DNA from: an uncultured Acholeplasmatales bacterium | GTDB lineage: Bacteria > Bacillota_I > Bacilli_A > Acholeplasmatales > Anaeroplasmataceae | Assembly: GCA_944323055.1 (NCBI GenBank) | Contig: CALUQZ010000004.1 | Location: 1 to 64,000 of the forward strand | DNA length: 64,000 nt | Direction: 5' to 3' | Shown here: positions 4,287 to 59,943 of the stretch, one piece after another | Layout of the letters: each line of letters begins with the position of its first letter | How positions within the stretch are numbered: position 1 is the first letter of the stretch | Position numbers and translations under genes: made by a program | The notes under the pieces: model-generated | What the model was told of the DNA's origin: nothing | The model's database searches: none | What the model saw: the letters and a program-made list of their open reading frames with translations, nothing else

Positions 4287-5928
4287 ATAATTTGAATGAC
4301 GACTTAAGTTCACAGCTTCTATTAAATACTAAATTAGAATCTGTGCTATCTTTATCTAAAATATAATAACCATTACGAACAAATTGATAATGTGTGCCAA
4401 TTTGGTCATCTTTAAATGATTCTTCTACATACCCTTCATAAACATGTAATGAATTAGGATTTAACTTTTCCATAAAATCTAAATCTTTATTCTCAGCTGT
4501 TTCATCTAACATAAGTGGTTCAAATTGTCTAAATGTAGCCTTTAAAGCTGTCGTAGCTTCTACAAAATGAATATTACCATTAGGTTTTCTACCTTCAAAG
4601 CCCGTACCTGATTTAGTTTCCGGGTCATATGTACAATGAATCTCTACAATATTACCATTTTCATCTTTAACAACACTATTACATTTAACAAAATAAGCAT
4701 GCATAAATCTAACTTCTACATCTTTAGCAAGTCTTTTCCATTTCTTATTAGGCTTTTCTTCTAAGAAATCTTCTTGTTCAATGTAACAATATTTAGAAAA
4801 GGCAATCTTTCTACTTCCTAATTCTTCATTTTCTGAATTATTAGGACAATCTAAATATTCAATTTGCCCTTCAGGATAATTATCAATAACAACCTTTAAT
4901 GGGTGAACAATCGCATGTTTACGCATAGCTTTTAACTTTAAATCTTCTCTTAAAGCTTCATCAAGCTGAGAACTATCAACCGTACTATTAACTCTTGATA
5001 AACCTGTACTTAAAATAAAGTTTTTAATAGCTTCTGGCGTAAACCCTCTTCTTTTTAAACCCACTAAAGTAGGCATTCTTGGGTCATCATAACCACTAAC
5101 TTTTTTACTATCAACTAATTGTTTAATATAACGTTTAGACATAATAGTATTAGTAATATTTAAACGACCAAATTCATATTGATGAGGAACATGTTCCATT
5201 TCACACTTCTCAATAAACCAATCATATAAAATACGATGGTTATCATATTCTAGTGAACATAAAGAGTGAGTAATACCTTCAAAACTATCTTGAAGTGGAT
5301 GAGCAAAATCATACATTGGAAAAATACACCATTTATTACCTTGACGATGGTGATTAATGTGCATAATACGGTACATTGCTGGATCACGCATATTCATATT
5401 AGGATGAGCCATATCAATTTTAGCTCTTAAAGTCTTTTCACCATCTTTGTATTTGCCTTGACGCATTTCTTCAAATAACTTTAAATTTTCTTCAACACTA
5501 CGATCACGGCAAGGTGAATTAGTACCTGGAGTAGTTAAGGTACCACGCATTCTAGACATTTCTTCTTGTGATAAATCATCAACATAAGCTAAACCTTTTT
5601 TTATCAAAAGAATAGCTTTCTCATAAGTTTTTTCAAAATAATCTGAGCCATAGAAGACATTTTTAGGAGTATAACCTAGCCATTTTAAATCGGCAATTAT
5701 ACCATCAACAAATTCCTGTCCTTCCTTAGCTGGATTTGTATCATCAAATCTTAAATTAGTATATCCATTAAAAGCTTTAGCCAACTCAAAGTTAGTAATA
5801 ATAGCTCTTGCATGACCAATATGTAAATAAGCATTAGGTTCTGGTGGAAACCGAGTAATTATTTCATTTACACGTCCTTCTTTAAGATCATCTTCCATAA
5901 TAGTTTTAATAAAATTATTAATTTCCAT
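4285..5928 (-). CDS. glnS: Glutaminyl-tRNA synthetase
   Basis: A class Ic aminoacyl-tRNA synthetase that charges tRNA-Gln directly. It has the ATP-binding HIGH motif (FPPEPNAYLHIGHARA, near residues 27-42) and the second motif TIMSKRYI. The 547-residue length is typical of bacterial GlnRS, including the C-terminal anticodon-binding beta-barrels. Most Bacilli lack GlnRS and use Glu-tRNA(Gln) amidotransferase, so its presence is a useful phylogenetic mark and may reflect old transfer. It has its own promoter and a terminator at the stop codon. Confidence 0.96.
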   Translation of the reverse strand: MEINNFIKTIMEDDLKEGRVNEIITRFPPEPNAYLHIGHARAIITNFELAKAFNGYTNLRFDDTNPAKEGQEFVDGIIADLKWLGYTPKNVFYGSDYFEKTYEKAILLIKKGLAYVDDLSQEEMSRMRGTLTTPGTNSPCRDRSVEENLKLFEEMRQGKYKDGEKTLRAKIDMAHPNMNMRDPAMYRIMHINHHRQGNKWCIFPMYDFAHPLQDSFEGITHSLCSLEYDNHRILYDWFIEKCEMEHVPHQYEFGRLNITNTIMSKRYIKQLVDSKKVSGYDDPRMPTLVGLKRRGFTPEAIKNFILSTGLSRVNSTVDSSQLDEALREDLKLKAMRKHAIVHPLKVVIDNYPEGQIEYLDCPNNSENEELGSRKIAFSKYCYIEQEDFLEEKPNKKWKRLAKDVEVRFMHAYFVKCNSVVKDENGNIVEIHCTYDPETKSGTGFEGRKPNGNIHFVEATTALKATFRQFEPLMLDETAENKDLDFMEKLNPNSLHVYEGYVEESFKDDQIGTHYQFVRNGYYILDKDSTDSNLVFNRSCELKSSFKL

Positions 5929-5945
5929 AAAAAATCACCATTTCT

Positions 5946-5974
5946 ATTATACTATTTTTTCTTTTATTAGGCAA
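5946..5974 (-). promoter_or_regulatory. Promoter of glnS
   Basis: Minus-strand TTGCCT (5969-5974) and TATAAT (5946-5951) are 17 nt apart, 18 nt before the start codon region. The 5' leader would be very short (about 11 nt), which leaves no room for a T-box. Confidence 0.6.
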
Positions 5975-6018
5975 AATAAATTACTGATTTTTATAGCATT
6001 TTCGCCATAAAATCAAAG

Positions 6019-6055
6019 AAAAAGGGAATTATGCCTTGACATAACCCCCCTTTTT
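6019..6055 (-). terminator. Intrinsic terminator of the sigma/lipoprotein operon
   Basis: On the minus strand AAAAAGGGGGGTTATG pairs with CATAATTCCCTTTTT (two G-U pairs and one bulge) around a 6-nt loop, and U-rich sequence follows. It sits 22 nt after the stop of the large lipoprotein. Confidence 0.8.
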
Positions 6056-6076
6056 CTAGGAGAAATATTTAAATAA

Positions 6077-9000
6077 TTAATAATTACTAGCAAATTTTAA
6101 TGTTGGATAATTAGCTAAATCATCTAAATTCCATATATCTTCAGCAAAGCCAAGTTCTATCCAGAATTCTTTATCCATAATTTGGTCTTTACTAGCTAAA
6201 TAAATATTATTGAGTTCATCTACATATTGCTCATCTAGCGTGTAACAATTAGTTGTCTTTGCTCTACTGTGTGTCACATCATTAATTGAAACTGAATTAG
6301 ATAAGTAGAAATTAACGTTAACATATCCAATTATACCAATATTGCTGCTGATATTTCCTAAATTTATTAGATTGCTACCATAGGCAGCCCCTGTATTAGT
6401 TGAACCAATGATACCAGCATTAGTACCAACACTTGAAACATCTCCATAGTTGATACAATCATTTATATTTAAAATATCCGTAGTTCCACCAATAATGCCA
6501 CCAATTTCATTTTCTATACCTATAATATTACCGTAGTTAACTAATTGGGCAACACTTATACTAAACCATGCTGTACCAATAATACCACCTACATGTGATT
6601 TACCAGAGATTGTAGCGTGGTTAATTATTCTAACTATATTATCTCCTTCTCCACTTAAAGCAGTTAAACCACCAACATGATCCAAACCAGTTATTGAACC
6701 AGAAATCGTAACATTAGAAATAGAATTAGAAGATATTAGACGACCAACTAGACCACCAGCTGAAGATGAACTTTCAATAACGGCATTTTCTATAACCACA
6801 TTATTTACTACACCATTTATAATGGCACCAGCAAATACCCCAGCATAAGCTTCTGTTACATCTTCAATAATGATATACGGATTGACAAAAGTAATGTTTT
6901 CTACATACCCTGTAAATCTACTAAATAAACCATAATCTATAATATTATTAGTAGATAAACGGCTTTGTAGAGAGAAGTTCAATAATTTATGATTATCACC
7001 AATAATAACACCATTAAATTCTTTGTTAAATAAATTGCCATTTACACTTGAGAAGTCGATATCTTTAGTTATGACATAAACATGATAATTTTCTAGATTT
7101 GCAAAATCACTAGCTTCATCAATTACTAATAATTCATCACTATCGACAACATATAAATTTGCTGTTAAATTATAACTTTGAATCGTAGAGTTACCCTCTA
7201 AAGAATATTCAACATTTTTCAAAGTAATAGCCGAAGTATTATCATTAGAACTAATTCTAACTTCACTGTCACTAATTACTTCTATTTCTTCTTTAGTATA
7301 CGTTTTTTGACTTGTCTCAATACTTTCAATTTGATAGCCTTTAGTACCATCAAATTTTAAGCTAATTTCCTTTTGACCCTTAACAGCAAAAGGTAAATCA
7401 CGTGATGAACCAAAATAAGATACACCTAAATCACCTAAAACAAATACTTCATTAACATAATCAGTAAATAGATTTTCTTTAAGTTCAATCTTATCATCAC
7501 CTACTGAAATTAAATAGCTATAACCTGTTAAGACAACATCATAACTACCACCTAAAGTTTCTGGAACAAATCTAATTATTATAGAATCTCCATCAACACC
7601 AAATTGAGCAGCATCAAAACGAACGTCATTAATATATAAGGCCGTTAAATTTAAGTTATTAGGATTATCTAACTTAACTCTTATATGAATTTCCTTACCA
7701 ACCAATAAAGAATCACTATTAATAACTTCAAAACCTATTACATTAACTTTAGCACCTGAAGTCCCGTATTCTTGAGTTATTTGATCCTCTGTAACAACTC
7801 CGCTGCCATCATTTAAATTATAAGTGTAAGTTGTAACAATCCGGTAGAATTGACTGCCTGTCAAACCTACAAATTTTCGAACAGACAAATCTTCCAAAGT
7901 TTGAACAACTTCACCTTTCATATCTAACAATTCAATATTAATAATAGTTAATGTATTGCTGTCATCCTTAATAATGTAATCAAAGAAGATTTCACTATCT
8001 GTACAAGATAAATCAGTATAAGTTAAAGAAATATCATATTTTTTAGTATTTACATCGAGAGTAACTATATTATATTGCACACCTAAGCCATCATTTAAAT
8101 CATAAGAATATGTACAAACGAAGTTATAGGTATTATTACTATAAAGACCTGATGCGTTCAAATCTTCTAAAGTCAACTGTTTAGTTTCCTTATTATTTAT
8201 ATATAGAATACCTGATTCAAAATTAAATATATGATCTAAATCAATTAATTCATATTTTAAAGTAAATGAATCATATGTTGCTTCTACAATAGAGAAATTA
8301 ATTGTTGGAGTTATCAAGGCTTTAGTAGTAATCTCATGTTCTACTGCTTTAATTTGTTTACCTTTTAAATCACCTAAATCATATTCATAAGTTAAAACTA
8401 CACGATAAGTATTATTTGAATATAAATTATCAAATGTCGCAGCCATACCTTCAGAAACTAGTTCATCCCCAAGGTATAACTTAATGTTTTTAATAAGACC
8501 AGCTGTATGGATATCAGAAATAACTGGACTAGCAACTATAGTAGTCTTTGTAGCATCTAAATTAAAGTCCACTTCAGGCATCAATTTAGCTGTAGTAATT
8601 TCTTGTTCATAAACAATTTCATGTGAACCAGTACCATCATCTAAATCATAATTATAATAAATCTTAATAATATAGTTAGTATTAGGATTTAAACTATCAA
8701 AACTAAATGAATTAGCTACTGTTACTTGTTTTAAGAAATTATTATCATCATCAAACAATCTAATAGCTGATATTTCCCCAATAACATTCGGATCTGTTTC
8801 TATTATGTCATAGCCTATTGAGTTTTCAGTTATAGAGTATGGTGAAATCTTAAGAGTTGGTACTTGTTTAGCTGTACTAAAAGATATACTTAACTCTTCT
8901 TCTTGAATACCATTACCCTCATTTAAATCATAAGAATAAATAACATTAATTTGATACTTCGCGTTTGATTTTAAATCTTTTATTTCTTTAACATAATTAA

Positions 9001-10435
9001 TATCATCTGATACTTCAATAATATTACCTTCCTCATCACATAATTCATAATATTTAAAATTAAATATATTATATTCATCTATGACATTAAGCTCTCCCAC
9101 AAAGTTAAGATCATAAATATTATATTTAAGTGATAAAGTTGGTGCATCTATTTTAGAAGTTTTAATAGTAATTTCTTTACTTGTATTTTGTATACCATTA
9201 CCATCATTTAAATCATAGTAAATAGATAATACTAAGCGATATTCGGTATTACTTAATAAATTTATAAGCTCTTCATCTTGTTTTACTAATTCATCTCCTT
9301 TATATAAAGAAACACTTTGACTATTAACTAAATTATTTAAATCATTTATTTGACTTTCATAAGTGATTGAATTATTAGTAGCTGTAGCTGCTAATTTAGT
9401 AATTGTAGGAACTTCATAAGCTAGAGTGCTTACACTATTATAAATATGATAGGTTTCATCTTGATAAGAAAATACTAATTCTATTTGATAAGTACTATTA
9501 GATAAAAGACTACTAACATTAGTATTATCTTTAATATTTATTACATTACCATTATTATCAATTAAACTAATAGTAGAAATTGTTGCATTATCAACATTAT
9601 TAATTATTTCATAATTAAAACTATCATAACTTACATCATTAATTTTAATATCTACTGGAGCCGCTGTTCTAAAATCACCTTCAGCTAAAATATAAGTTTT
9701 AGAACCATTACCATCTAAAATATCTAAATTTAAAGCTATAACATAATGATAATTAGCGCCTGTCCTTAAACTATCTACTGTTATTATATTTTCTTCTAAC
9801 ACTTGACTAAAAACAATTAAATCATCTTGGTCAAATACATAAAATCTAAGATTTGAATTAGCTAAAATATTATCATTATCAACTATTTGTAACATGGCAT
9901 TAAAAGTTGTATAAGTAACTGACATATCATACATACTAACAGTTGGTAAATCTTGATAAGTAATACCAACATCAACACTTTTATTACCATTAGACATATC
10001 AACATCTTTAATGGCTTGTTTATCTATATATTTAATATTATCAACATAATAATTAAACACGCCTGGTTCACTAGGTGCTGTTACACTTAAGATGATATTT
10101 TCACTATTTGAACCATCAACAAACTCAAATGTTTGATATTTAATTTCATTAATAGTTATAGATAAAATTTCAAATTGACTAGGGTTAGTTAAATGTATTA
10201 CTAAATTAAATTTTTCATTTGGCTTTACAAAATAACTTAACCCAGAATCAACATTAATATCAGGTACAGCATGTTTCATATTTTTACTAGTTTCAGTAGT
10301 ACTAGAATTAGTAACTACATTAACACCTTGATATATTGGCACTATTTTTTCTTCTGTTACCGTCTCTGTGCCATTACACGCAGATATTATAAATAACATT
10401 ATTAATGCAATAAAAGATAATAAATATTTTTTCAT
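6077..10435 (-). CDS. Large surface lipoprotein with repeated Ig/Fn3-like domains and GLUG-type C-terminus
   Basis: A 1452-residue exported protein of unknown function. The N-terminus is a lipoprotein signal (MKKYLLSFIALIMLFIISAC), so it should be anchored outside the membrane. The middle consists of about ten beta-sandwich-like repeats of roughly 90-95 residues, seven of which contain a recognisable loop such as YDLNDGNGIQ, an acidic D-x-N-D-G-x-G pattern that could bind calcium. From about residue 1155 to 1400 there are GLUG-like repeats (GGLVGRL, GGIIGT, NYGNI) common in surface proteins. It overlaps the upstream membrane gene by ATGA and has GGAGG before its start. Its N-terminal half is paralogous to that membrane protein. 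Confidence 0.85.
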   Translation of the reverse strand: MKKYLLSFIALIMLFIISACNGTETVTEEKIVPIYQGVNVVTNSSTTETSKNMKHAVPDINVDSGLSYFVKPNEKFNLVIHLTNPSQFEILSITINEIKYQTFEFVDGSNSENIILSVTAPSEPGVFNYYVDNIKYIDKQAIKDVDMSNGNKSVDVGITYQDLPTVSMYDMSVTYTTFNAMLQIVDNDNILANSNLRFYVFDQDDLIVFSQVLEENIITVDSLRTGANYHYVIALNLDILDGNGSKTYILAEGDFRTAAPVDIKINDVSYDSFNYEIINNVDNATISTISLIDNNGNVINIKDNTNVSSLLSNSTYQIELVFSYQDETYHIYNSVSTLAYEVPTITKLAATATNNSITYESQINDLNNLVNSQSVSLYKGDELVKQDEELINLLSNTEYRLVLSIYYDLNDGNGIQNTSKEITIKTSKIDAPTLSLKYNIYDLNFVGELNVIDEYNIFNFKYYELCDEEGNIIEVSDDINYVKEIKDLKSNAKYQINVIYSYDLNEGNGIQEEELSISFSTAKQVPTLKISPYSITENSIGYDIIETDPNVIGEISAIRLFDDDNNFLKQVTVANSFSFDSLNPNTNYIIKIYYNYDLDDGTGSHEIVYEQEITTAKLMPEVDFNLDATKTTIVASPVISDIHTAGLIKNIKLYLGDELVSEGMAATFDNLYSNNTYRVVLTYEYDLGDLKGKQIKAVEHEITTKALITPTINFSIVEATYDSFTLKYELIDLDHIFNFESGILYINNKETKQLTLEDLNASGLYSNNTYNFVCTYSYDLNDGLGVQYNIVTLDVNTKKYDISLTYTDLSCTDSEIFFDYIIKDDSNTLTIINIELLDMKGEVVQTLEDLSVRKFVGLTGSQFYRIVTTYTYNLNDGSGVVTEDQITQEYGTSGAKVNVIGFEVINSDSLLVGKEIHIRVKLDNPNNLNLTALYINDVRFDAAQFGVDGDSIIIRFVPETLGGSYDVVLTGYSYLISVGDDKIELKENLFTDYVNEVFVLGDLGVSYFGSSRDLPFAVKGQKEISLKFDGTKGYQIESIETSQKTYTKEEIEVISDSEVRISSNDNTSAITLKNVEYSLEGNSTIQSYNLTANLYVVDSDELLVIDEASDFANLENYHVYVITKDIDFSSVNGNLFNKEFNGVIIGDNHKLLNFSLQSRLSTNNIIDYGLFSRFTGYVENITFVNPYIIIEDVTEAYAGVFAGAIINGVVNNVVIENAVIESSSSAGGLVGRLISSNSISNVTISGSITGLDHVGGLTALSGEGDNIVRIINHATISGKSHVGGIIGTAWFSISVAQLVNYGNIIGIENEIGGIIGGTTDILNINDCINYGDVSSVGTNAGIIGSTNTGAAYGSNLINLGNISSNIGIIGYVNVNFYLSNSVSINDVTHSRAKTTNCYTLDEQYVDELNNIYLASKDQIMDKEFWIELGFAEDIWNLDDLANYPTLKFASNY

Positions 10436-11300
10436 AATTTTCCTCCAAGCCCATGTTTTAATACTATTATTCTTTCACCATTACCATCAAATAAATCATA
10501 AGTAATTGTTATTCTCAATTCAATATTGCTATATTCATTATCTAAAATCAACATTCCACTATTAGCTATATCATTAAATAATAAATTATTATCGGCATAA
10601 ATAGCTATTGTATAGTCTTTAATTAAATTGTTCTCATCGATTAAAGAAACATTATAATATAATTTATTTTCTGAAATTAATAAATATGTTTCATTTGTAT
10701 CAAGCGTAGGTTCTTGATATTCTTTAGTTTTAATTACTAATTCTTTTACTATATATTGTTTGCCATTGCCATCAAGTAAATCATATTCAACTACTAACAA
10801 CAATTTATATTCACAATTGCTAAATAAATCAACAAAATCGCCATTTTCTTGTATTAATTGTTCTCCTAAATATAGATTAACGCTCTTATTGGTAATAACA
10901 TTATCTATATCTTCTAATTTGTAATCATAAGTAATTGTTCTTGGGGTAGAACTAGCATTAAAATCTAATATTTTAGGTGCTTGTAGTTGTTTTGTTTCAA
11001 AATTAAAGGAAAATGAATCTGTATATATTTTATCTAATAATAAATATTCATAACTTACTTCTACTAAATATGTTTTATTAGTTAATAAATTATTAAATAA
11101 AACATTTAAACCATTTTGTTCACTAATAAGTTCATCATTATAATATAACTTAGTAATAACTTTAGTTACATCATCTTTAGCTGTATAGTCAACTGTTAAA
11201 CTAGTATCATCTACCTTTGTTGTATAACTTATACCTACATCAGTTGTAAAATTACTTTCATATAACTGCTGTTTTGTTATTCCCATACCATTTAAAATAT
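7800..11300 (-). repeat. Coding repeats shared by the lipoprotein and the membrane protein
   Basis: Repeat units of about 260-290 nt recur near 7808, 8085, 8375, 8632, 8922 and 9205, with another loop near 9710 and further copies in the upstream gene near 10478, 10765 and 11286. The most conserved part codes for the YDLNDGNG-type loop and reads on the plus strand as variants of CCATCATTTAAATCATA. The copies are diverged, so they are old duplications. Confidence 0.7.
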
Positions 11301-12111
11301 CTATTTCTACATATATAACTAACTTATATGTAGTGTTTTTTAATAAATTATTAAACTTAATAGATTCTTGTTTAATATCTACTATTAAAGAATCAACAAC
11401 TTCATTATTTAAATATAGTAAAACATTTAAATTATTTACAATTCCATAATAATCAAATAAATCATAATCTAAAACATATGATTTATCATCATATTCTTCT
11501 TTTATAACTTTAATTTCTGGCAATTTGTCATATTCTTTAGCTATAAGAATACTTCTATCACCTGCAAATTTAGCATTTTCGATCTTATCTTTATCTATAT
11601 ATCGTAATTCATCAATATAAAGAGTTTCAATACCAGGATTACTATCTAAATACATAATTATATAAATAGTATCATTAGTGGAATAATCAGCAAAATTAAA
11701 ACTTGAGTATCTTGTGTCATTTATAACTAAAGAAACAATTTCAAAATCATCAGGATTATCGAGGTAGATAGCTACAACTAATCTTTCATTGACTTTAGCA
11801 TAATAATCTATGTCACTATCTTTTATATCTTCACTTTTAACCATATAATTTAACGAAATATTTGTAGGAGCATCTACTACTTCCATTCCTAAATAAGTAG
11901 GAATGGTTCTAGTATCAATAAATAAAAATAAACATATAACTATTACTGTTATAGCTAAAATAAATGAAGATGTAATAGCTAATCTTAATTTAATTCTTCT
12001 TTTCGGTTTTGATTCATTAAAATTTAAACTCTTTTTGACATTAATTAAATCATATTTAGCCTTATCTTCTTTTAAAAATTCTTTTTTATATCTTTTTTTA
12101 ATCTTTAACAT
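10432..12111 (-). CDS. Single-pass membrane protein with extracellular repeat domains, in anti-sigma position
   Basis: A 559-residue protein. Residues 1-42 are very basic and would be cytoplasmic, residues about 43-65 form one membrane helix, and the rest is predicted outside. The outer part begins with an IPTYLGMEV segment paralogous to VPIYQGVNV at the same place in the downstream lipoprotein, and contains at least three D-x-x-D-G-x-G repeat loops (IDILNGMG, YDLLDGNG, YDLFDGNG). It starts 10 nt after the ECF sigma gene. I see no zinc-binding anti-sigma domain, so an anti-sigma role is inferred only from position and topology. It ends with TGA overlapping the lipoprotein start. Confidence 0.8.
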   Translation of the reverse strand: MLKIKKRYKKEFLKEDKAKYDLINVKKSLNFNESKPKRRIKLRLAITSSFILAITVIVICLFLFIDTRTIPTYLGMEVVDAPTNISLNYMVKSEDIKDSDIDYYAKVNERLVVAIYLDNPDDFEIVSLVINDTRYSSFNFADYSTNDTIYIIMYLDSNPGIETLYIDELRYIDKDKIENAKFAGDRSILIAKEYDKLPEIKVIKEEYDDKSYVLDYDLFDYYGIVNNLNVLLYLNNEVVDSLIVDIKQESIKFNNLLKNTTYKLVIYVEIDILNGMGITKQQLYESNFTTDVGISYTTKVDDTSLTVDYTAKDDVTKVITKLYYNDELISEQNGLNVLFNNLLTNKTYLVEVSYEYLLLDKIYTDSFSFNFETKQLQAPKILDFNASSTPRTITYDYKLEDIDNVITNKSVNLYLGEQLIQENGDFVDLFSNCEYKLLLVVEYDLLDGNGKQYIVKELVIKTKEYQEPTLDTNETYLLISENKLYYNVSLIDENNLIKDYTIAIYADNNLLFNDIANSGMLILDNEYSNIELRITITYDLFDGNGERIIVLKHGLGGKL

Positions 12112-12121
12112 CTACCATCAC

Positions 12122-12622
12122 CTACAATTCTTGTCTCAATTTAGCTAAGGCTTTTTTATAAATTCTATGAATCTCTGATTTTGAAATATCATGTAATTGC
12201 CCTATCTCAACAAAAGTCATATTAAACACAACGTGAAGGTTTAAGATATCATATTCAAGTGGTGTTAAAATAGCTTTACATAAATCTAATAAATGCGTTT
12301 TATCATAATCAGGAATCTTGTTAATGTATTCAGAATTAATATAGGCTCTTTTGTTTTTATTATCTCTTAAATATCTTTTAGCATTATTTTTAGCTATCGT
12401 AATTAACCAATATTTAAAAGATTTATTAACATCATGTTGTTCTATATGATTATATAAATCAACAAAAGTATCTGATGTTAATTCATTAGCAGTTTCATAA
12501 TCATTAACTATCTGATTTATTACATAAAAAACTAATTTGTAATATTCTTTATAAATGATATCAAAAGCTTTTTCATTTTTCAGTTTTAATTCCCTAATTA
12601 ATTTACTCTCATCTTTTAGCAT
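12122..12622 (-). CDS. ECF-type RNA polymerase sigma factor
   Basis: A 166-residue sigma-70 family protein of the extracytoplasmic-function type. The region 2 helix carries AFDIIYKEYYKLVFYV and TANELTSDTFVDLY; region 4 has TPLEYDILNLHVVFNMTFVE followed by the HTH ISKSEIHRIYKKALAKLRQ. The start at 12622 is chosen because AGAGGTGG precedes it; upstream codons in the open frame look like leader sequence. It is first in an operon with a membrane protein and a lipoprotein, suggesting that it senses surface events and may control this operon and others. Confidence 0.93.
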   Translation of the reverse strand: MLKDESKLIRELKLKNEKAFDIIYKEYYKLVFYVINQIVNDYETANELTSDTFVDLYNHIEQHDVNKSFKYWLITIAKNNAKRYLRDNKNKRAYINSEYINKIPDYDKTHLLDLCKAILTPLEYDILNLHVVFNMTFVEIGQLHDISKSEIHRIYKKALAKLRQEL

Positions 12623-12702
12623 AAAGCCACCTCTAATGATCTTTTCAGAATATAAGATACAAAAAACTACAATTTTTCCCAAATAATTATGTTATTTTTT
12701 TA

Positions 12703-12731
12703 ATTATATAATATTTTTTACTTTACATTAA
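12703..12731 (-). promoter_or_regulatory. Possible promoter of the sigma-factor operon
   Basis: Minus-strand TTAATG (12726-12731) and TATAAT (12703-12708) are 17 nt apart. The -35 is weak and the region is very AT-rich. A TTTGGGAAAAAT element closer to the gene could instead belong to an ECF-type promoter, but no clear ECF -10 is seen. Confidence 0.35.
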
Positions 12732-12745
12732 ACAGCTTTTAAACA

Positions 12746-14077
12746 TTACCTTATATCATTAATAAATCTCTTTAATAAAAAAGTTAAAAAATAAGGAAAA
12801 GTATAAAATTTACCATTAAATCCGATGTTTTTTTCGCACAGTTTAATGCCATATTTTACATAACTATATTTCGGATTATCAATCAATTTATTTAACGAAA
12901 TAGTAGAGCTATCTTTAGCTTTAACTTCAATTGGAATAATACTATCTGTATCTCTAATTATAAAGTCAATTTTAATTGTTGACTTGTCATTTTTATAATA
13001 GTAAAGAGGAACTCCTGCCTTCACTAGCATATCCGCAACTATATTTTCATAAATACCACCTTTATAAGTATTAAAATTTTTATTAAATCTTAAATCTTTG
13101 TTTGATTCTTCATCTAAAGAAGCTACTAAAAGGCCTGTATCCATAAAATAAACTTTATAATTATTTAAATCATAATTTCCTTTTAATGGTAATTCTAAAT
13201 TTTTTGATAAATAACAAATATTTATAATACCAGAATCATTAATCCAATCTATAATGCCTATATATTCTCGATTTCTAGCATTTGAATCAATTTTTGTTAT
13301 TTGATATTTTTTATTATCTTTACCTAAAAAATAGCTATATTACGATAAAATCTAGCAATTTTAGCTTGATCTAATCCTCTTGCATATTTTCTAATATCTT
13401 CTTCATATGCTCTTATAATTTGTTGTTGAATTTGATATGTTCCCCCATAATTTTTGTTTTCAACAAAAAGAGATACCACTTGTGGCATTCCACCGAGCAC
13501 CATATATTCATGAAAAGCCTCTAAAAAAACCGACATCTGCGTATTTGATAAAGGTTCTAGCCTAATCATCTTTTTATATAAATCTTCAATTTGTTCTTCA
13601 TGATAACCTAATGCCCATAAATATTCTTCAAAATCTAAGGAATACATAGTTACTTCTTCTTTGTATCCAACACTAACCGAATCAATCTCTTTATAATTTA
13701 ATCCCATCATACTACCTGAACATATAACATCATATCTACCATCTAAGTAAAAAAAATTTCAAAGATGTGACACAATTAGGGCATTCTTGCATTTCGTCAA
13801 AAAATATTAAAGTTTCATTAGGCTTAAATATTAAGTTTGGATTTCTAAGTGTTATATTTTGTAATATTTTATTAACATCATATCCATCAGAAAATATATC
13901 TTTTTATTCCGGATTATTAACAAAATTAATATTTATAAAATACTTATAATTACTCTTACCAAAATAACTAATTGAATATGTTTTGCCAATTTGTCTAGCC
14001 CCTCTAATAATTAAAGGATATCTATTATCTTTACTTTTCCAATTTAATAAAAATTTTTCCATCTTTCTTTTTAACAT
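12746..14077 (-). pseudogene. Decayed AAA ATPase / DUF4143 gene (three lesions)
   Basis: Joined across frames, this is one gene of the ATP-binding protein family with an N-terminal AAA domain and C-terminal DUF4143. From the ATG at 14077 it encodes the P-loop IIRGARQIGKT, then an in-frame TAA at 13904-13906; reading on gives the Walker B segment LIFFDEMQECP. A one-base excess in a run of eight T (13749-13756) breaks the frame before YLDGRYDVICSGSMMGL. A one-base loss in a T6 run (13326-13331) separates FYRNIAIF from LGKDNKKYQI. The last part has a PD-(D/E)XK-like pattern, KIDFII ... IPIEVKA. No fragment is likely to be functional alone. Confidence 0.85.
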
Positions 14078-52446: not shown

Positions 52447-55400
52447 CTAAAGTAAACCTTTAAATAATAAAGCTAATGAAATACCAAGCATACTAGTTTG
52501 AGCAACTAAAGCTACTACAGCACTATAATCGAAACCATTAGTTGTAATATTATCAACAACTTCAGCATCAGCTTCAATCATTGCTAAATATTCATTATAT
52601 GAAGCTACTAATTGATTGTATTTTCTTAAATCAAGAATATTTCTTTCATCACGAGATAAACTATTCATTTGACTAGCTATATCTTTCAATTTATTCAAAT
52701 CACTTAATTTAAATGTTGTATCTAAATTATCTAATGAACTTTGAACATTTCTAACAGCACTACTACCTTGATTTCTTAATAATTCATATAGTTTGTATCT
52801 TGCATCTTCTATCTTATTCTTCATAGAAGTAACTTCATCAGCTGTATAGCCAAATTTAGTCAAATCTTGAGTTAAAGCATTTAAGATAGTTACCGCATTT
52901 GTAATTAATTCTTCATCATCTACTGATACACTATCTACACTAGGAATTTGATCAATTATTCCTAAGAAGGCAAGAGTATTATTATCTTTAGCTTCATAAT
53001 CACTTCTTATAGCTTCACTAATATCACCAAAATAGCCTTCATAAATTAATGTATCATAACCAATTAATCCTTCATTAGCTGGTAAAATCAATGTTAGATT
53101 ATTTATTGTTCCTACCCGGTCAACAAATTGATAATATGGATATGGATTAGTAAATAAATGATAAGCATAATTAAATAATTCATAGCCTGGATCACCTATT
53201 TCTATTTCACCATCTTCAATTATATAACTTTCTAATTTAGGAGCTGTAAATGTTCTAAATTCGACAGTTTCTAACTTATCATAATCATAGAAAGCAAAAT
53301 TAGAGATAACTTCTAATGTATCAGGGAATACAAGATTGACAATATTCTTATTCATATTGCCTGCATAAGGTTCTATAACTTTAGTATTATCTAATACTTG
53401 TAATGTTTCAACATTTAAAGCAGCCGGAACTTGACTTAAAGCTAAAGAACCATTTTCTAAATAAGTATATAATACTCCATTAGATAAACGAACATAATCA
53501 TTAACTTCTCCGTCCCTCTTTAATGTTCCGTTATCATCATAATTAAATGTTTCTAATCTAGTTGAACCAAAGAAGACGTTGTGACCAATATGAGTCAATT
53601 TATTTGATATCGTAAATGATGTTAAATTTAGGCAATTACTAAAAGCAGCAGAACCTATATAACTTAAATTTGGTAAACTGATACTAGTCATATCCGTACC
53701 TTGGAAAGCATAATCACCTATATAATTTACTAAATTAGCATTATTGATATTAGTTAAATTAGTATTAGCAAAAGCTCCATAATTAATAGTAGTTGTTTTT
53801 GCTAAATTAACATTAGTTAAATTAGTATCGTTAATAAATGCTCCATCAGCTATTGTAATAATATTTTCTAAATTAATATTAGCTAATTTAGAACAATTAC
53901 TAAAAGCATTTTCCGCTATATAATTTAATGTTGTAGGTAAAACAACTGTAGTTAAAGCTTGACAATTAGCAAAAGCAGATGAACCTAAAGATGTTAATCC
54001 TTCTGGTAAAGTAATACTTTCTAATTTGTTAGCTTCACTAAATGCTCCTGCTTTAATCTCTTTTAAACTTGCACCTAATGTAATTGAGGTAAAAATAGGG
54101 GCTGTTGCTTTACTATCAACTTTAGAAAATGCATAAGAACCAATTACTTCAATAGTTTCTAAATTAACATCTATTAAATTACGACATTCTGCAAAAGCAT
54201 AATCTCCTATTTCAATAGCATTTATTAAATTAGCCTTAGATAAAGACGTATTTTGATAGAATGCATAATTGCCTATTTTGTTGACCGCATTTTCTAAATT
54301 AATGTTAGCTAAACGGTTATTATAAGCAAAAGCATAATCACCAATCGTGTTATTATTACCTAAAACAACTTCAGTTAAACTATAATTAGAACTAAATGCA
54401 TAAGGACTAATAGTAATATTATCACCTAAAGTAACTTTTTCTAATGTTGTACTAGCAAAACTATAATTACCTAAACTTGCATTAATATTTACATCTTTTA
54501 AAGCAGTGTTATAAAAAGCATAATCACCAATTTCAATTGCCTTATCTAAATTGTTAACAGTTATTAATTTAGTATTAGCATAAAAAGCATGATCTAATAT
54601 TTTAATACCAACTGTATCAGGTAAATTAATAGTTGTTAAATTAATACAATTACTAAAAGCATTTTCCCCAATTATTGTGTTAGGATTTGTAATTGTAACT
54701 GATGTTATAGTTTCGTTATTAGCAAAAGCACCTTGAGCTATTTTAGTTACTGTATTTGGTATTGTAAAATCACCTAAATTAGCTTCTTTAGCTATTAAAA
54801 TAATCTCACTTAAATCCTTATTATATAAAACAGCATTATTTTCTGCATCAGTTTGATAATATGCACTACCTGATACAATAAAACTATTTAAATTAGTTTC
54901 AGCAAAAGTATCAATTCCTAGGCTAACAATCTCTGTCAACTCATTAAATGTTAAACTAGTTAATTTAGTTGAACCAGCAAATACTTCATCACCTAAAGTA
55001 AAACTAGAATTTGGTAAAACTAGATTTTCTAAGTTTTTGTTATTTGCAAAAGCTCTATTATAAATATATTCTACTTCTCCATTAAATGTAATGCTATTTA
55101 AATTAGTATTTTCAAAAGCACTCGTACCAATATAAACTAAATCATTTTCAAATGTAACACTAGTTAAAGAGCTACAATTAATAAAACAATTTTCAGGAAT
55201 TATGTTTTGTCCTAAACTAATAGATACTAAACCAGAACCATTAAACATACCACTAGCTAATTTAGTATTAGGACTCATAGTAATATTTGTTAAACTTGTA
55301 CAACCTTTAAATATTTCTTTACCACTACTTCTTAAAGTTGATATATTCACATTATTTAAACTTGTACAATTCTCAAATACATTATAAGAAATTGAATAAA

Positions 55401-58400
55401 CTTCGCTTAAATCAACTGTAGTTAAACTACTACAATTTTTAAAGGCCTCATATTCAATTGTAGTAACATTTTCTAAATTAATTTCTTTTAATTTTGGACA
55501 ATTATAAAATGCCATAGCTTCAATTGTTGTTACTGTAGAAGGTAAAACAACTTTTTCTAAATTAACTAAATTAGCAAAGGCCATTTTACCAATTGTAGTT
55601 ACTCCTTCAGGAATAACAACTGATGTTATTGTTTCATTTATTTGTGGAACTTTATTAGCATCTAAATCATCTTCTGTAACTGGAACATTATAATCAATAT
55701 TATAAAGAGCAAAAGCGTATGGAGCAATTTCCATTAAACCTTCATCATCTGGTATAACAATATCTCCACCAACACCTTTATAATAATTCAATACTCTGTT
55801 TTCAATCACAAAAGGATCCTTAACATTAACAGACAATAGGGCCATCATATTAGATTGTTTACCATCTACACTAATACTTAATCTTATTGTTGTTGTACCT
55901 TCACTAAGAGATGAAACAACACCATCTTGAGTTACCGTAGCAACTCTTTCATTAGTACTAGAATACGTAACTTCATATCTATCGCTTGGTAAATACCATG
56001 GTTCAATATTATAAGCTAATTGTATTTGTTCACCAGGATAAATTGAAACTACAGCTGCCCCTACATTATTCTTAGGTAACGATGAAATTAACGTTCTATT
56101 TACCTCATTACCTAAAACATTGGCCTCTCCGGCAGCTGGATGTCCTTTAATGACATCAAAATAGATAAAGTTAATACTTTCTAATTTAGCATCATCTAAT
56201 GCTTGATTACTTGTTCCATTAACTCTAATTGTAATACTTGCACTTTCAACATTAAAGCTTGGATTAGACACTGTAATTGTTGCCGTTCCAGCCTTCAAGC
56301 CAATAACTTCACCTTTATCAACAATTGCAACTTCTGGATTTGATGAAGTCCATTCTAAATAATCTAAATAATCTTTACCAACTGCAATTTGTGCATCTGT
56401 TGATGTTAAATATTCTGTTAAATCTAGAATTTCCCCAGCTTTAATTATTTGTTGTGTTTTACTTGCACCATCTTGAGTGCCATCTGAAGTAAACTTTAAA
56501 TTACCTTTTGTTCCTGGTAAAGAACATAAATAAATATTTGAATTTAAAGCGTAATCATCAATAACAAAAGCTAAAGTATTAGTAGATACTTCATCAAAAT
56601 AAATACTTTCTAAATAATCAGTAATTTCAAATCTAACAGTTGTCTTTTCCCCTTTATCCCCATATACAGGATATGGATATTGTGATAAAGTTGTATAACT
56701 TGAACCATCTTCAGTAAATAAAATTGGAGTTACAGATTGAACATATTGATTATCGGAAACTGTTAAAGTGACATAATATCTATCTTCTTTTAAAGTCTTA
56801 TCATAAACTTTTTCATATTCAGCGCCTAAAATGATTGGAGCTTCATCATCTAAAGTAAAATTAAAACTATAGTTATTTCTAACATTACTACTTACGCCAC
56901 CATCACCATAATCTAAATATGCTTGCATCTTAAATTCATATTCTCTATTATTCACTAAATTAAGGTCTATAGGGTCTATTTCTAATCTTTCAAAATACGG
57001 AACCTGACCTGCTCCACTATTAGAAAAAGCTTTATTACAGTTATAATCACTAAACTCATAAATTACTTCACCAGTAACTGTATCAACAATAGTATAATCC
57101 ATTTTCATTACATTACGTAATAAACCAGTATAAATACCATTGATTCCATTTATAGTTCCTGTATTACTTGAAATGACAATATGATCTTCTCGTGCTGGGA
57201 TTTGTGTATATTGTGATAAATCCATTTCATATACATATGTACCTAAAGATATAACATAACTATCATAATATGTTCCAAATGGTACTGTTGCATAATAATC
57301 AGCTTTTAATTTATCTTCCTCATCAATAGAATTATCATATGCTTCTGACTCTACTTCATAAAATGTTTTATCAAAAATAGGTGCTTCTGTCCAATCGCCA
57401 TAAAAAGCTAAAAAAGGCACATTTAGAGGAATATCATTATTATCACTTGCTGGTTCTAATTTTACAAACCCCTCTACATACATTCCATGTGGGAAAGAAC
57501 TTTCTATATAATCTTTATCTATATCTGTTAGACTATATGTAATAGTAACAACTGCCGTTGAATTTGGTTTAACAGTAATACTTCTACCACTTACACTTCC
57601 ATTAGTAACACTATTAATATCTAAAGAACCATTTAACATATAGGCTTTTTCAGCAACATAATCATTATCACTTGTTGAAACTGATTCTGTCATACCAGCT
57701 ACCGATAAATCATATACTAAACTTTCAGAAGAAATATTAGTAATGTTAAAGGTCATTTTATAAACGCCTGTTCTATTTTTATCATCACCAAGTTCTAGTT
57801 TAGCTCTATTTCCTGTTTCAACACCTTCATATGCTGTATCAGTAACTGATATATAAGCATTAGTCGTTGTAGCATTTAAAAGACTAGCTAGACCAGCCCC
57901 TTGTTTACGTGGAGAATAAGGATTTCCTTCTTCATTTAAAGCTATTGTAGCTGTTGACATTAATAATTGATATGCTAAATCAGATATTTGTTTAGAAGAA
58001 TAATCTGGATATTTTTCTTTTAAATATTGTCTAATTAAAACGACAATACCACACATATTAGGACATGCCATAGAAGTCCCACTCATCTTGTCATATCCAC
58101 CACCAGGTACAGCAGATACAATGTTACCACCATGAGCTGTAATTTCTGGTTTTAATTTTAAATCAGAAGTCGGACCCCAACTTGAAAAATCTGACATAAA
58201 AGGACCAGCTTCATATTTATCATTAAATGTTAAAATGCCTGTTCTATTTTGCGCTAAAACATCACCAACATCTTTAGTTACTGAAATAGCTGGAAAATCA
58301 GTAACTTTACCAGTCGACATAGTTATATCGCCTGGAACATTGTTATAAATAATAATTCCAATAGCTCCTTCATCTTCAGCAATAGCGCATTTTTCTTCAA

Positions 58401-59943
58401 ATGTGTTATCTCCTCTTTTTACTAAAGCTATTTTACCCTCTACATTTATATTCTGATAATTACTTCTTAAACCATAACCAGGAACTGTTACATATTCTAT
58501 TTCTGTATTTGTTGTACTAGTTATACCTAAATCATCATAAAAATTATTATAATAAATTCCTGTGGCATTTGAACTTGATTCTTCATAGAAGAAAATAAAG
58601 TTATCTGGGCCTACTATATAATTAGATTTAGTGCCACTTATTGAAGCTACTGATAAAGCCCCATAATAAGTAGATGGTGAACCAACAGTTGATGATTCTG
58701 GATTTGTAACTTTATTTGTATTTGATTCTTCACCACCAAAACCAGAACTATAACTATTACTAGCTGCCACTATTAAACTAATTCCTGAATTGTTAATTGA
58801 ATTATAAATGCTATTTAACACTTGATTATCATATTCTCTAGAAAAACCACAAGATGTACCAAGTGACATATTAATAGCATCTACTCCAAGTAAAACCGCA
58901 TCCTCTAATCCAGCTAATAAATCTTCCGTATCAGCACCTTCACTTAAATCAGAGAAAACCTTCATTAATACTAATTGAGTATGTGTAGCAACACCAGTAA
59001 AATTATCATATGTCGAACCATCATTAGTTTCAATAGCCCCATCATACTTTCCACCAATAATTCCAGCTACGTGTGTTCCATGAGTTGATAGTGTTGGTTC
59101 AACATCAAAATCAAAATCAGCATAATCATATGCAAAAGGTACCTTAACATTTTTATAAACATCATCAACAATTAAATCTTTTGTATGTTCATAAGCTACT
59201 GTATCTTCTAATATACTAGCAACATCTTCTTTTACAATAGCCGGGTTAGTTGGATTACTATTTTGAAATACTTCATGAGATATATCAAAACCACTATCTA
59301 ATATAGCAACTGCTGTACCTTCACCATTATATTGTACACTTGAAGAATCAAAGATACCCGTATCATACACATCAACTACATTAGTAACCGCATCACTAGA
59401 AACCGCTGTAGATTGCGGTAAATTATATGTTTCAGACATATAAGTGTTTAATACATGATCAATTTCTCCAATGTTACTTAAATTACCATATGTTGTTTTA
59501 ATTGCAATACCATTTAAAATAGTATTATATTGATATAAAACTGTCTCAACATATCCATTACTCTCTAATTTAGAAATTAAAGCATTTTGTTCTTGTTTTA
59601 ACTTCTTAGCTTTATTTAAGCCTTCATTGCTGTTTATATAATCAATCACATTTTGATATTTATCAGCATAATTAGCATTGTATTCATCAATTAATGAATT
59701 GCTATCTAATTCAATAATTACTGATATTTCATCACTATCTAGATAACCATTATTTTCTTTGATAGCTTCTGCCTTCATCATATTTAAACGAGATTCTTGT
59801 GATACTTCAGCATCAGTTAATAATAATGGTAAATTATTATCAACTGTAGAAACACTATCTGTATTAGAGCTAACACAAGCCTGACAAGCTAAAATTAAAG
59901 AAGCTCCTAATAATGTCATTAATCTTTTAATAAAAACTCTCAT
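52447..59943 (-). CDS. Giant cell-surface subtilisin-like protease with leucine-rich repeats
   Basis: A 2498-residue secreted protease of family S8. After a signal peptide (MRVFIKRLMTLLGASLILAC) and a propeptide-like region, the catalytic triad is Asp216 (ILDSGFD), His288 (HGTHVAG) and Ser624 (MSGTSMACP), with the oxyanion Asn in VAASN. A PA insert occupies about 440-570 (EGKIALVKRG), as in C5a peptidase and lactocepin. Fn3-like and two Big_2-like domains follow (about 650-1375), then LRR_5 repeats (about 1395-2230), a helical segment and a C-terminal hydrophobic anchor (residues 2475-2498). No LPxTG. GGAGG precedes the start; it follows the opp genes. Confidence 0.93.
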   Translation of the reverse strand: MRVFIKRLMTLLGASLILACQACVSSNTDSVSTVDNNLPLLLTDAEVSQESRLNMMKAEAIKENNGYLDSDEISVIIELDSNSLIDEYNANYADKYQNVIDYINSNEGLNKAKKLKQEQNALISKLESNGYVETVLYQYNTILNGIAIKTTYGNLSNIGEIDHVLNTYMSETYNLPQSTAVSSDAVTNVVDVYDTGIFDSSSVQYNGEGTAVAILDSGFDISHEVFQNSNPTNPAIVKEDVASILEDTVAYEHTKDLIVDDVYKNVKVPFAYDYADFDFDVEPTLSTHGTHVAGIIGGKYDGAIETNDGSTYDNFTGVATHTQLVLMKVFSDLSEGADTEDLLAGLEDAVLLGVDAINMSLGTSCGFSREYDNQVLNSIYNSINNSGISLIVAASNSYSSGFGGEESNTNKVTNPESSTVGSPSTYYGALSVASISGTKSNYIVGPDNFIFFYEESSSNATGIYYNNFYDDLGITSTTNTEIEYVTVPGYGLRSNYQNINVEGKIALVKRGDNTFEEKCAIAEDEGAIGIIIYNNVPGDITMSTGKVTDFPAISVTKDVGDVLAQNRTGILTFNDKYEAGPFMSDFSSWGPTSDLKLKPEITAHGGNIVSAVPGGGYDKMSGTSMACPNMCGIVVLIRQYLKEKYPDYSSKQISDLAYQLLMSTATIALNEEGNPYSPRKQGAGLASLLNATTTNAYISVTDTAYEGVETGNRAKLELGDDKNRTGVYKMTFNITNISSESLVYDLSVAGMTESVSTSDNDYVAEKAYMLNGSLDINSVTNGSVSGRSITVKPNSTAVVTITYSLTDIDKDYIESSFPHGMYVEGFVKLEPASDNNDIPLNVPFLAFYGDWTEAPIFDKTFYEVESEAYDNSIDEEDKLKADYYATVPFGTYYDSYVISLGTYVYEMDLSQYTQIPAREDHIVISSNTGTINGINGIYTGLLRNVMKMDYTIVDTVTGEVIYEFSDYNCNKAFSNSGAGQVPYFERLEIDPIDLNLVNNREYEFKMQAYLDYGDGGVSSNVRNNYSFNFTLDDEAPIILGAEYEKVYDKTLKEDRYYVTLTVSDNQYVQSVTPILFTEDGSSYTTLSQYPYPVYGDKGEKTTVRFEITDYLESIYFDEVSTNTLAFVIDDYALNSNIYLCSLPGTKGNLKFTSDGTQDGASKTQQIIKAGEILDLTEYLTSTDAQIAVGKDYLDYLEWTSSNPEVAIVDKGEVIGLKAGTATITVSNPSFNVESASITIRVNGTSNQALDDAKLESINFIYFDVIKGHPAAGEANVLGNEVNRTLISSLPKNNVGAAVVSIYPGEQIQLAYNIEPWYLPSDRYEVTYSSTNERVATVTQDGVVSSLSEGTTTIRLSISVDGKQSNMMALLSVNVKDPFVIENRVLNYYKGVGGDIVIPDDEGLMEIAPYAFALYNIDYNVPVTEDDLDANKVPQINETITSVVIPEGVTTIGKMAFANLVNLEKVVLPSTVTTIEAMAFYNCPKLKEINLENVTTIEYEAFKNCSSLTTVDLSEVYSISYNVFENCTSLNNVNISTLRSSGKEIFKGCTSLTNITMSPNTKLASGMFNGSGLVSISLGQNIIPENCFINCSSLTSVTFENDLVYIGTSAFENTNLNSITFNGEVEYIYNRAFANNKNLENLVLPNSSFTLGDEVFAGSTKLTSLTFNELTEIVSLGIDTFAETNLNSFIVSGSAYYQTDAENNAVLYNKDLSEIILIAKEANLGDFTIPNTVTKIAQGAFANNETITSVTITNPNTIIGENAFSNCINLTTINLPDTVGIKILDHAFYANTKLITVNNLDKAIEIGDYAFYNTALKDVNINASLGNYSFASTTLEKVTLGDNITISPYAFSSNYSLTEVVLGNNNTIGDYAFAYNNRLANINLENAVNKIGNYAFYQNTSLSKANLINAIEIGDYAFAECRNLIDVNLETIEVIGSYAFSKVDSKATAPIFTSITLGASLKEIKAGAFSEANKLESITLPEGLTSLGSSAFANCQALTTVVLPTTLNYIAENAFSNCSKLANINLENIITIADGAFINDTNLTNVNLAKTTTINYGAFANTNLTNINNANLVNYIGDYAFQGTDMTSISLPNLSYIGSAAFSNCLNLTSFTISNKLTHIGHNVFFGSTRLETFNYDDNGTLKRDGEVNDYVRLSNGVLYTYLENGSLALSQVPAALNVETLQVLDNTKVIEPYAGNMNKNIVNLVFPDTLEVISNFAFYDYDKLETVEFRTFTAPKLESYIIEDGEIEIGDPGYELFNYAYHLFTNPYPYYQFVDRVGTINNLTLILPANEGLIGYDTLIYEGYFGDISEAIRSDYEAKDNNTLAFLGIIDQIPSVDSVSVDDEELITNAVTILNALTQDLTKFGYTADEVTSMKNKIEDARYKLYELLRNQGSSAVRNVQSSLDNLDTTFKLSDLNKLKDIASQMNSLSRDERNILDLRKYNQLVASYNEYLAMIEADAEVVDNITTNGFDYSAVVALVAQTSMLGISLALLFKGLL
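53265..55760 (-). repeat. BspA-like LRR_5 repeats inside the protease gene
   Basis: About 35 units of roughly 21-24 codons, with the consensus L-x-x-I-x-L-x-N-x-x-x-I-G-x-x-A-F, for example LVNLEKVVLPSTVTTIEAMAF. Treponema/Bacteroides BspA-type repeats are usually found in adhesins, so the protease may bind host or food proteins through them. Confidence 0.8.

Follow-up and report, generated by a model that had tools for sequence, protein, structure and literature searches.

On its minus strand, the window (the whole stretch of 64,000 nucleotides that was analyzed) carries three genes: one for an ECF sigma factor, one for a membrane protein with a single transmembrane pass and one for a giant lipoprotein. 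The outer parts of the last two proteins are homologous. The reading that we favor, with a probability of roughly 50%, is an auto-regulated ECF sigma/anti-sigma circuit of which the lipoprotein is the output, with probable feedback through its membrane-side twin.

Operon layout and the shared ectodomain

The sigma factor and membrane protein genes are separated by a gap of 10 nt, the membrane protein and lipoprotein genes overlap in ATGA, and the sole terminator-like hairpin within positions 5900–12,900 follows the last gene, exactly as the first-pass annotation of this DNA had laid out the unidirectional unit. Its features are listed below.

6019..6054, minus: terminator-like hairpin with T tail
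6077..10435, minus: giant lipoprotein, 1452 aa (open reading frame, sequence)
6101..7123, minus: beta-helix-like C-terminal part of the lipoprotein, about residues 1105–1445, adhesin-like tip by analogy (model, Foldseek)
7508..7696, minus: second, diverged head of the lipoprotein, residues 914–976 (profile, 1e-8)
7772..9961, minus: eight fibronectin-III-like repeats of the lipoprotein, residues 159–888 (profile)
9983..10240, minus: head domain of the lipoprotein, residues 66–151 (profile, 5.4e-34)
10376..10435, minus: signal peptide and lipobox with Cys20 (IISAC) (sequence, lipobox pattern)
10432..12111, minus: 559-aa membrane protein whose ectodomain is of lipoprotein type, putative anti-sigma factor (open reading frame, homology, model)
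10459..11535, minus: four fibronectin-III-like repeats of the membrane protein, residues 193–551 (profile, Foldseek)
11548..11814, minus: head domain of the membrane protein, residues 100–188 (profile, 7.5e-32; beta fold with pLDDT 83–90)
11914..11970, minus: transmembrane helix, residues 48–66 (hydropathy; model helix 49–64)
11971..12111, minus: cytoplasmic tail, residues 1–47, putative minimal anti-sigma domain with two predicted short helices (tail profile, model)
12122..12622, minus: ECF sigma factor, 166 aa (Pfam Sigma70_r2 and Sigma70_r4, TIGR02937)
12652..12679, minus: putative operon promoter, GGGAAAAA - 15 nt - TCTTAT, sigma-E-like (motif common to the type A operons described below)

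The 166-aa protein is an ECF sigma factor (group 4 sigma-70), as it is short and comprises regions 2 and 4 only. It matches Pfam Sigma70_r2 (3.9e-15) and Sigma70_r4 (2.9e-8), and the TIGR02937 sigma70-ECF profile (3e-23) with 82 bits against a cut-off of 42.9.

The ectodomains of the membrane protein and the lipoprotein align by BLASTP with about 168 bits (E = 1e-48, 30% identity over 473 aa), while the best score after shuffling the ectodomain 100 times is 26.6 bits. The motifs from which their likeness had first been read are also present; D-x-x-D-G-x-G occurs exactly twice in the membrane protein and four times in the lipoprotein, next to near-matches, and lies near the end of the fibronectin-III-like repeats. 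The description of the outer domains as copies of each other holds for the head (about 90 residues) and the repeats, both delimited by profiles built in this analysis, but not from end to end, as the lipoprotein additionally carries more repeats, a second head-like domain and the beta-helix-like C-terminal part. In both proteins the shared module is membrane-proximal: the head starts about 34 residues past the membrane helix in the membrane protein and about 46 residues past the lipid-bearing cysteine in the lipoprotein. The tip of the lipoprotein is missing from the membrane protein.

Structure prediction of the 559- and 1452-residue proteins singly, a check proposed in the first-pass annotation, yielded beta domains and the beta-helix-like C-terminal part. 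Outside the cytoplasm, AlphaFold (run with 6 sequences, mean pLDDT 79) models the membrane protein as the membrane helix followed by a chain of beta domains. In Foldseek, the repeats match fibronectin-III chains of fibronectin, LAR and cytokine receptors (E about 1e-10 to 1e-12), with a low overall TM because the tandem layout is flexible, and the repeats are tandem beta-sandwiches of about 90 aa, which defines the fibronectin type III fold. Pfam fn3 gives sub-threshold matches only, in relatives, and searches of Pfam, NCBIfam and PDB sequences returned nothing above cut-off for the ectodomain or the lipoprotein. The C-terminal part of the lipoprotein, modeled with pLDDT mostly 75–94 and likewise lacking a Pfam match above cut-off, has the beta-helical parts of IgA1-protease-type proteins as its nearest solved structures (7uvk and 3n6z, both at about 1e-5), and may by analogy only be regarded as an adhesin-like tip. 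Relatives of the lipoprotein carry other tips, namely GLUG repeats in one case and BspA-type leucine-rich repeats in another.

The cytoplasmic tail of the membrane protein

Hydropathy gives the membrane protein a single hydrophobic segment near residues 40–66, preceded by a cytoplasmic N-terminus, and none of its 559 residues match a known anti-sigma domain in Pfam or NCBIfam, which bears out its earlier description as a protein with anti-sigma topology but no known anti-sigma domain. The general marks of an anti-sigma factor are all found: a sigma-adjacent gene, a cytoplasmic N-terminus, one membrane helix and an outer domain. A profile built from nine tails was run against 641 ORFs of about 70 sigma loci. 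The nine family members rank first and are followed, ahead of the remaining ORFs, by five further small membrane proteins that are encoded beside sigma genes and differ in their outer parts. Since the tail recurs only in ECF-sigma-adjacent membrane proteins, including those with unrelated outer parts, this stretch of some 40–47 residues is very likely a small anti-sigma domain, and we infer that it binds and inhibits the sigma factor.

It is very unlikely that the membrane protein is instead a second co-expressed surface protein and that the sigma factor is controlled otherwise. The missing Pfam or NCBIfam anti-sigma domain and a tail of only about 47 residues would suit such a role, but conservation of the tail is specific to membrane proteins that adjoin a sigma gene and are otherwise built differently, four of its residues (K5, K9, L22 and K26) are invariant among eight homologues, and both topology and gene position are typical of anti-sigma factors.

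Class I anti-sigma domains (ASDI) exceed 50 aa, comprise four helices and often carry H-x3-C-x2-C (PMC7406223). The tail has about 47 aa, two predicted helices and no Pfam match, and it lacks the HxxxCxxC motif, a zinc motif that alone is not obligatory for ASDI. In size it is nearer to class II (CnrY type), in which the cytoplasmic anti-sigma part is very short and two-helical (PMC7406223) and wraps around the sigma factor; the two helices of the tail (residues 2–14 and 18–28) are predicted with low confidence (pLDDT 30–41).

Distribution, putative promoter and a second twin family

Nine intact sets of sigma factor, membrane protein and lipoprotein were found, eight of them in the genus of the window and the ninth in a different family within the order. 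The genus sets comprise type A (n = 3), with lipoproteins of 1429–1481 aa, and type B (n = 5), in which the head-bearing lipoproteins measure 611 to about 717 aa and contain little beyond the shared module. A second set in the window's own genome, on another contig, is of type B and has the order lipoprotein, sigma factor, membrane protein, lipoprotein. In the ninth set, the lipoprotein frame, open over 4694 codons, comes first and is followed by the sigma factor and then the membrane protein. The first-pass annotation had staked its proposal on the sigma gene staying linked to the other two in relatives; this linkage is kept in all nine intact sets (9/9), and because two gene orders occur among them it does not reflect frozen synteny. 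Between types A and B, the sigma factors and membrane proteins diverge in step, as if the cassette had been duplicated. In the own-genome type B set (L006:6815-6960), the lipobox of a lipoprotein lies upstream of the first ATG, GTG or TTG of its frame, where GAGGAGG is followed by an ATT codon; translation may start at this unusual codon, or the sequence may contain an error.

Incomplete sets occur as well. One genome (G003) retains a decayed type A set (L044:4400-5330) in which the sigma factor is intact, the lipoprotein is absent and the membrane protein is stopped just before the membrane helix. As the stop codon lies between tail and helix, the tail could be produced as a free soluble peptide. 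The anti-sigma ectodomain of this locus gives way to what looks like a piece of an ATPase gene. In the window, two ORFs upstream of the sigma gene (12746-13710, minus) resemble fragments of one broken ATPase gene, and a similar gene also adjoins the decayed set in G003. At one site in another genome (G004), a short lipoprotein is all that is left between the genes that, in G007, enclose a complete type B set.

Lipoproteins with a head plus repeats are widespread in the class without a nearby sigma gene. In family f16 (L091-L107), such sigma-less lipoproteins adjoin a DNA polymerase IV-like gene in most genomes seen, which makes this a conserved neighborhood. The family of surface proteins thus extends beyond the regulatory cassette, and the anti-sigma factor has probably borrowed its module from it. 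In a tree of head domains, the membrane proteins and lipoproteins of types A and B are kept apart, and the anti-sigma factor from the other family (G158) groups with the lipoproteins of its own family. Independent captures of the ectodomain were considered and dropped, as a single origin of the membrane version is not rejected by the AU test (p = 0.26). Concerted evolution of cognate pairs was likewise set aside: cognate heads are no closer to each other than non-cognate heads (32.7 vs. 32.2% identity in type A, 25.5 vs. 25.7% in type B), with no signal that the pairs were matched or had evolved in concert.

The motif GGGAAAAA - 15/16 - TCTTAT precedes the type A operons in the window, L040 and L044; in L038 it takes the form GGGAAATT and lies in front of an additional sigma-like ORF. 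It is thus based on four loci, with a chance expectation of 0.2 per shuffled 64 kb, and was not found upstream of the type B loci. It resembles sigma-E-type ECF promoters. The own genome contains three matches, of which only the copy in the window lies at promoter distance from a gene. A wider regulon was rejected, given that three matches stand against eight for the reversed control and that the other two are off promoter positions. As only the operon's own copy occupies a promoter position, the motif, if it functions as a promoter, suggests auto-regulation and a small regulon. The additional ORF in L038 (3169-3618) encodes 149 aa and overlaps the beginning of the genuine sigma frame in the type A operon of G001.

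A survey of 60 further ECF regions of the order compared the ectodomain of the membrane protein encoded after the sigma factor with the other proteins of the region. A match at E of 1e-3 or better was obtained in eight of the 60, and five lie below 1e-13 (L148, 5e-41; L171, 4e-37; L155, 3e-36; L165, 7e-28; L166, 3e-14). In each of these five, the partner is a lipoprotein encoded beside the sigma/membrane-protein pair; the ectodomain is acidic, beta-rich and unrelated to that of the window, and the lipoprotein consists almost entirely of the twin domain. Merging both ectodomains into one family was rejected, since profile comparison aligns the tail and membrane helix only, a weak match that connects the window's anti-sigma factor to the second anti-sigma family. 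Within one order, two or more unrelated ectodomains are therefore found in the twin arrangement, and the search of gene neighborhoods for ECF sigma factors beside paired proteins, as earlier proposed, has recovered this second family in addition to the nine intact sets.

Two related arrangements were seen alongside. A third ECF operon of the own genome, on contig 16 (L007:5607-7963; sigma factor, membrane protein, lipoprotein), has an unrelated acidic ectodomain and appears to be a diverged twin, with its membrane protein and lipoprotein matching weakly (2e-7, acidic sequence); relatives such as L155, L171 and L165 show the twins more clearly. In family f3 (L139:2284-4513 and similar loci), an ECF sigma factor and an anti-sigma factor with an acidic ectodomain are followed by a lipoprotein, and it is this lipoprotein, not the anti-sigma factor, that carries the RsgI middle domain, RsgI_M (Pfam PF23750, 9.4e-25).

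The broad occurrence of the module bears on an alternative in which sigma and anti-sigma factor form a true pair, a locally available surface module serves as a passive spacer and the lipoprotein is a mere output that exerts no feedback. With head-plus-repeat lipoproteins so common in the class without a sigma gene, the likeness could be mere recruitment of a common module; moreover, the tail is combined with various unrelated outer parts, partners within a cognate pair are no more similar than others, and many sigma loci of the order have no detectable twin. Nevertheless, a twin is present in every intact set of the window's family, and a second, unrelated ectodomain is also twinned, there with a lipoprotein that is nearly all twin domain. 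We consider a passive spacer unlikely.

Proposed circuit, precedents and meaning

In the auto-regulated circuit that we favor, the cytoplasmic tail of the membrane protein would keep the sigma factor inactive until a surface signal leads to cleavage of the membrane protein by a site-1 protease and then by the single site-2 protease, the genome encoding one such enzyme. The freed sigma factor would transcribe its own operon, so that the giant lipoprotein is made, and the amount or assembly state of the lipoprotein would feed back on the anti-sigma factor, either through side-by-side contact that shields it from cleavage or through competition for one surface ligand. Auto-regulation and proteolytic release of the sigma factor are, like its binding by the tail, what we infer; feedback by the lipoprotein is the weakest step, deemed probable because both proteins carry the same head and stalk at a similar distance from the membrane. 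As the tip is missing from the membrane protein, side-by-side contact or a shared ligand at the membrane surface fits better than sensing of the tip's target. A bolder version, in which a twin-ectodomain circuit with a new minimal tail operates throughout the Acholeplasmatales, has evolved at least twice and reports the lipoprotein level by like-with-like contact, strikes us as rather unlikely.

The closest precedent is found in Clostridium thermocellum, where the ectodomain of RsgI6 contains a GH10 module that is 57% identical to Xyn10D, the promoter of which was found to be recognized by SigI6 (PMC4711584). The first-pass annotation knew of no described system with this design, a claim that proves too strong, because RsgI6 carries a near copy of a xylanase that is a target of SigI6 (PMC4711584). 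In both systems the anti-sigma factor spans the membrane once, and its outer domain has a homologue in a secreted protein that the cognate sigma factor controls, provided that the lipoprotein is a target of the operon's sigma factor as Xyn10D is of SigI6, which the operon layout and the promoter motif lead us to presume. For SigI/RsgI, release is described as involving the site-2 protease RseP (PMC12203970). The differences are nonetheless considerable. SigI has no region 4 and ends in a sigma-I C-terminal domain (PMC4711584), whereas the sigma factor of the window has regions 2 and 4; the 559-aa membrane protein has no RsgI domain by Pfam or NCBIfam; its twin part is the membrane-proximal head and stalk rather than a ligand-binding tip; and here the shared part is encoded in the same operon, in a host that is apparently wall-less.

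This precedent also inspires an alternative in which both proteins bind the same external ligand, which the membrane protein reports while the lipoprotein does the actual binding work, the two never touching. RsgI ectodomains indeed bind polysaccharides whose enzymes they control (PMC4711584), and the lipoprotein ends in an adhesin-like tip, in whose place relatives carry GLUG or BspA repeats. However, the common part is head and stalk, the tip as the likeliest ligand binder is absent from the membrane protein, and no carbohydrate-binding family is matched. Sensing of a shared ligand is a strong rival, although we rate it as less likely than the favored circuit.

For the feedback in the favored circuit, the FoxI/FoxR/FoxA system (FecI/FecR type) may serve as a model, since it likewise combines an ECF sigma factor, a single-pass anti-sigma factor and a surface protein, and contact with the surface protein spares the anti-sigma factor from proteolysis (PMC11637429). 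FoxA differs in being an outer-membrane receptor with a distinct signaling domain, while the surface protein here is a homologue of the anti-sigma ectodomain in a cell that has no outer membrane. No FecR-type match was found in the membrane protein by Pfam, and its partner is a lipoprotein, not a TonB-dependent transducer. RsiV, the anti-sigma factor of SigV, is described as binding lysozyme with its large outer domain, upon which regulated proteolysis follows (PMC4183432, PMC5014341). It resembles the membrane protein as a membrane anti-sigma factor of Gram-positive lineage with a large outer domain, but the ectodomains are unrelated and transpeptidase-type wall synthesis was not found in the window's genome. 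We know of no co-operonic lipoprotein twin for RsiV/SigV. A search of the open literature, with most subscription journals outside its scope, turned up no publication describing sigma operons with twin ectodomains in bacteria akin to Acholeplasma.

The own genome (about 96% complete) was searched for a transpeptidase-type penicillin-binding protein and none was found, and the named relatives retrieved by a contig profile search with the lipoprotein alignment are uncultured Acholeplasmatales; the cell surface is therefore likely to be free of peptidoglycan. On the minus strand of the window, positions 52447-59943 encode a lipoprotein of 2498 aa in which a subtilisin-like protease part and BspA-type leucine-rich repeats are recognized by eye, making it a possible site-1 protease candidate.

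Should feedback of the lipoprotein through its twin prove real, wall-less bacteria would have a simple means of gauging a surface protein, with a part of it placed on the anti-sigma factor. The recurrence of the arrangement with two unrelated ectodomains in one order renders this idea testable by comparison. The compact anti-sigma tail, missed by present domain libraries, would also aid the annotation of many orphan ECF sigma loci in this group, which is little studied.
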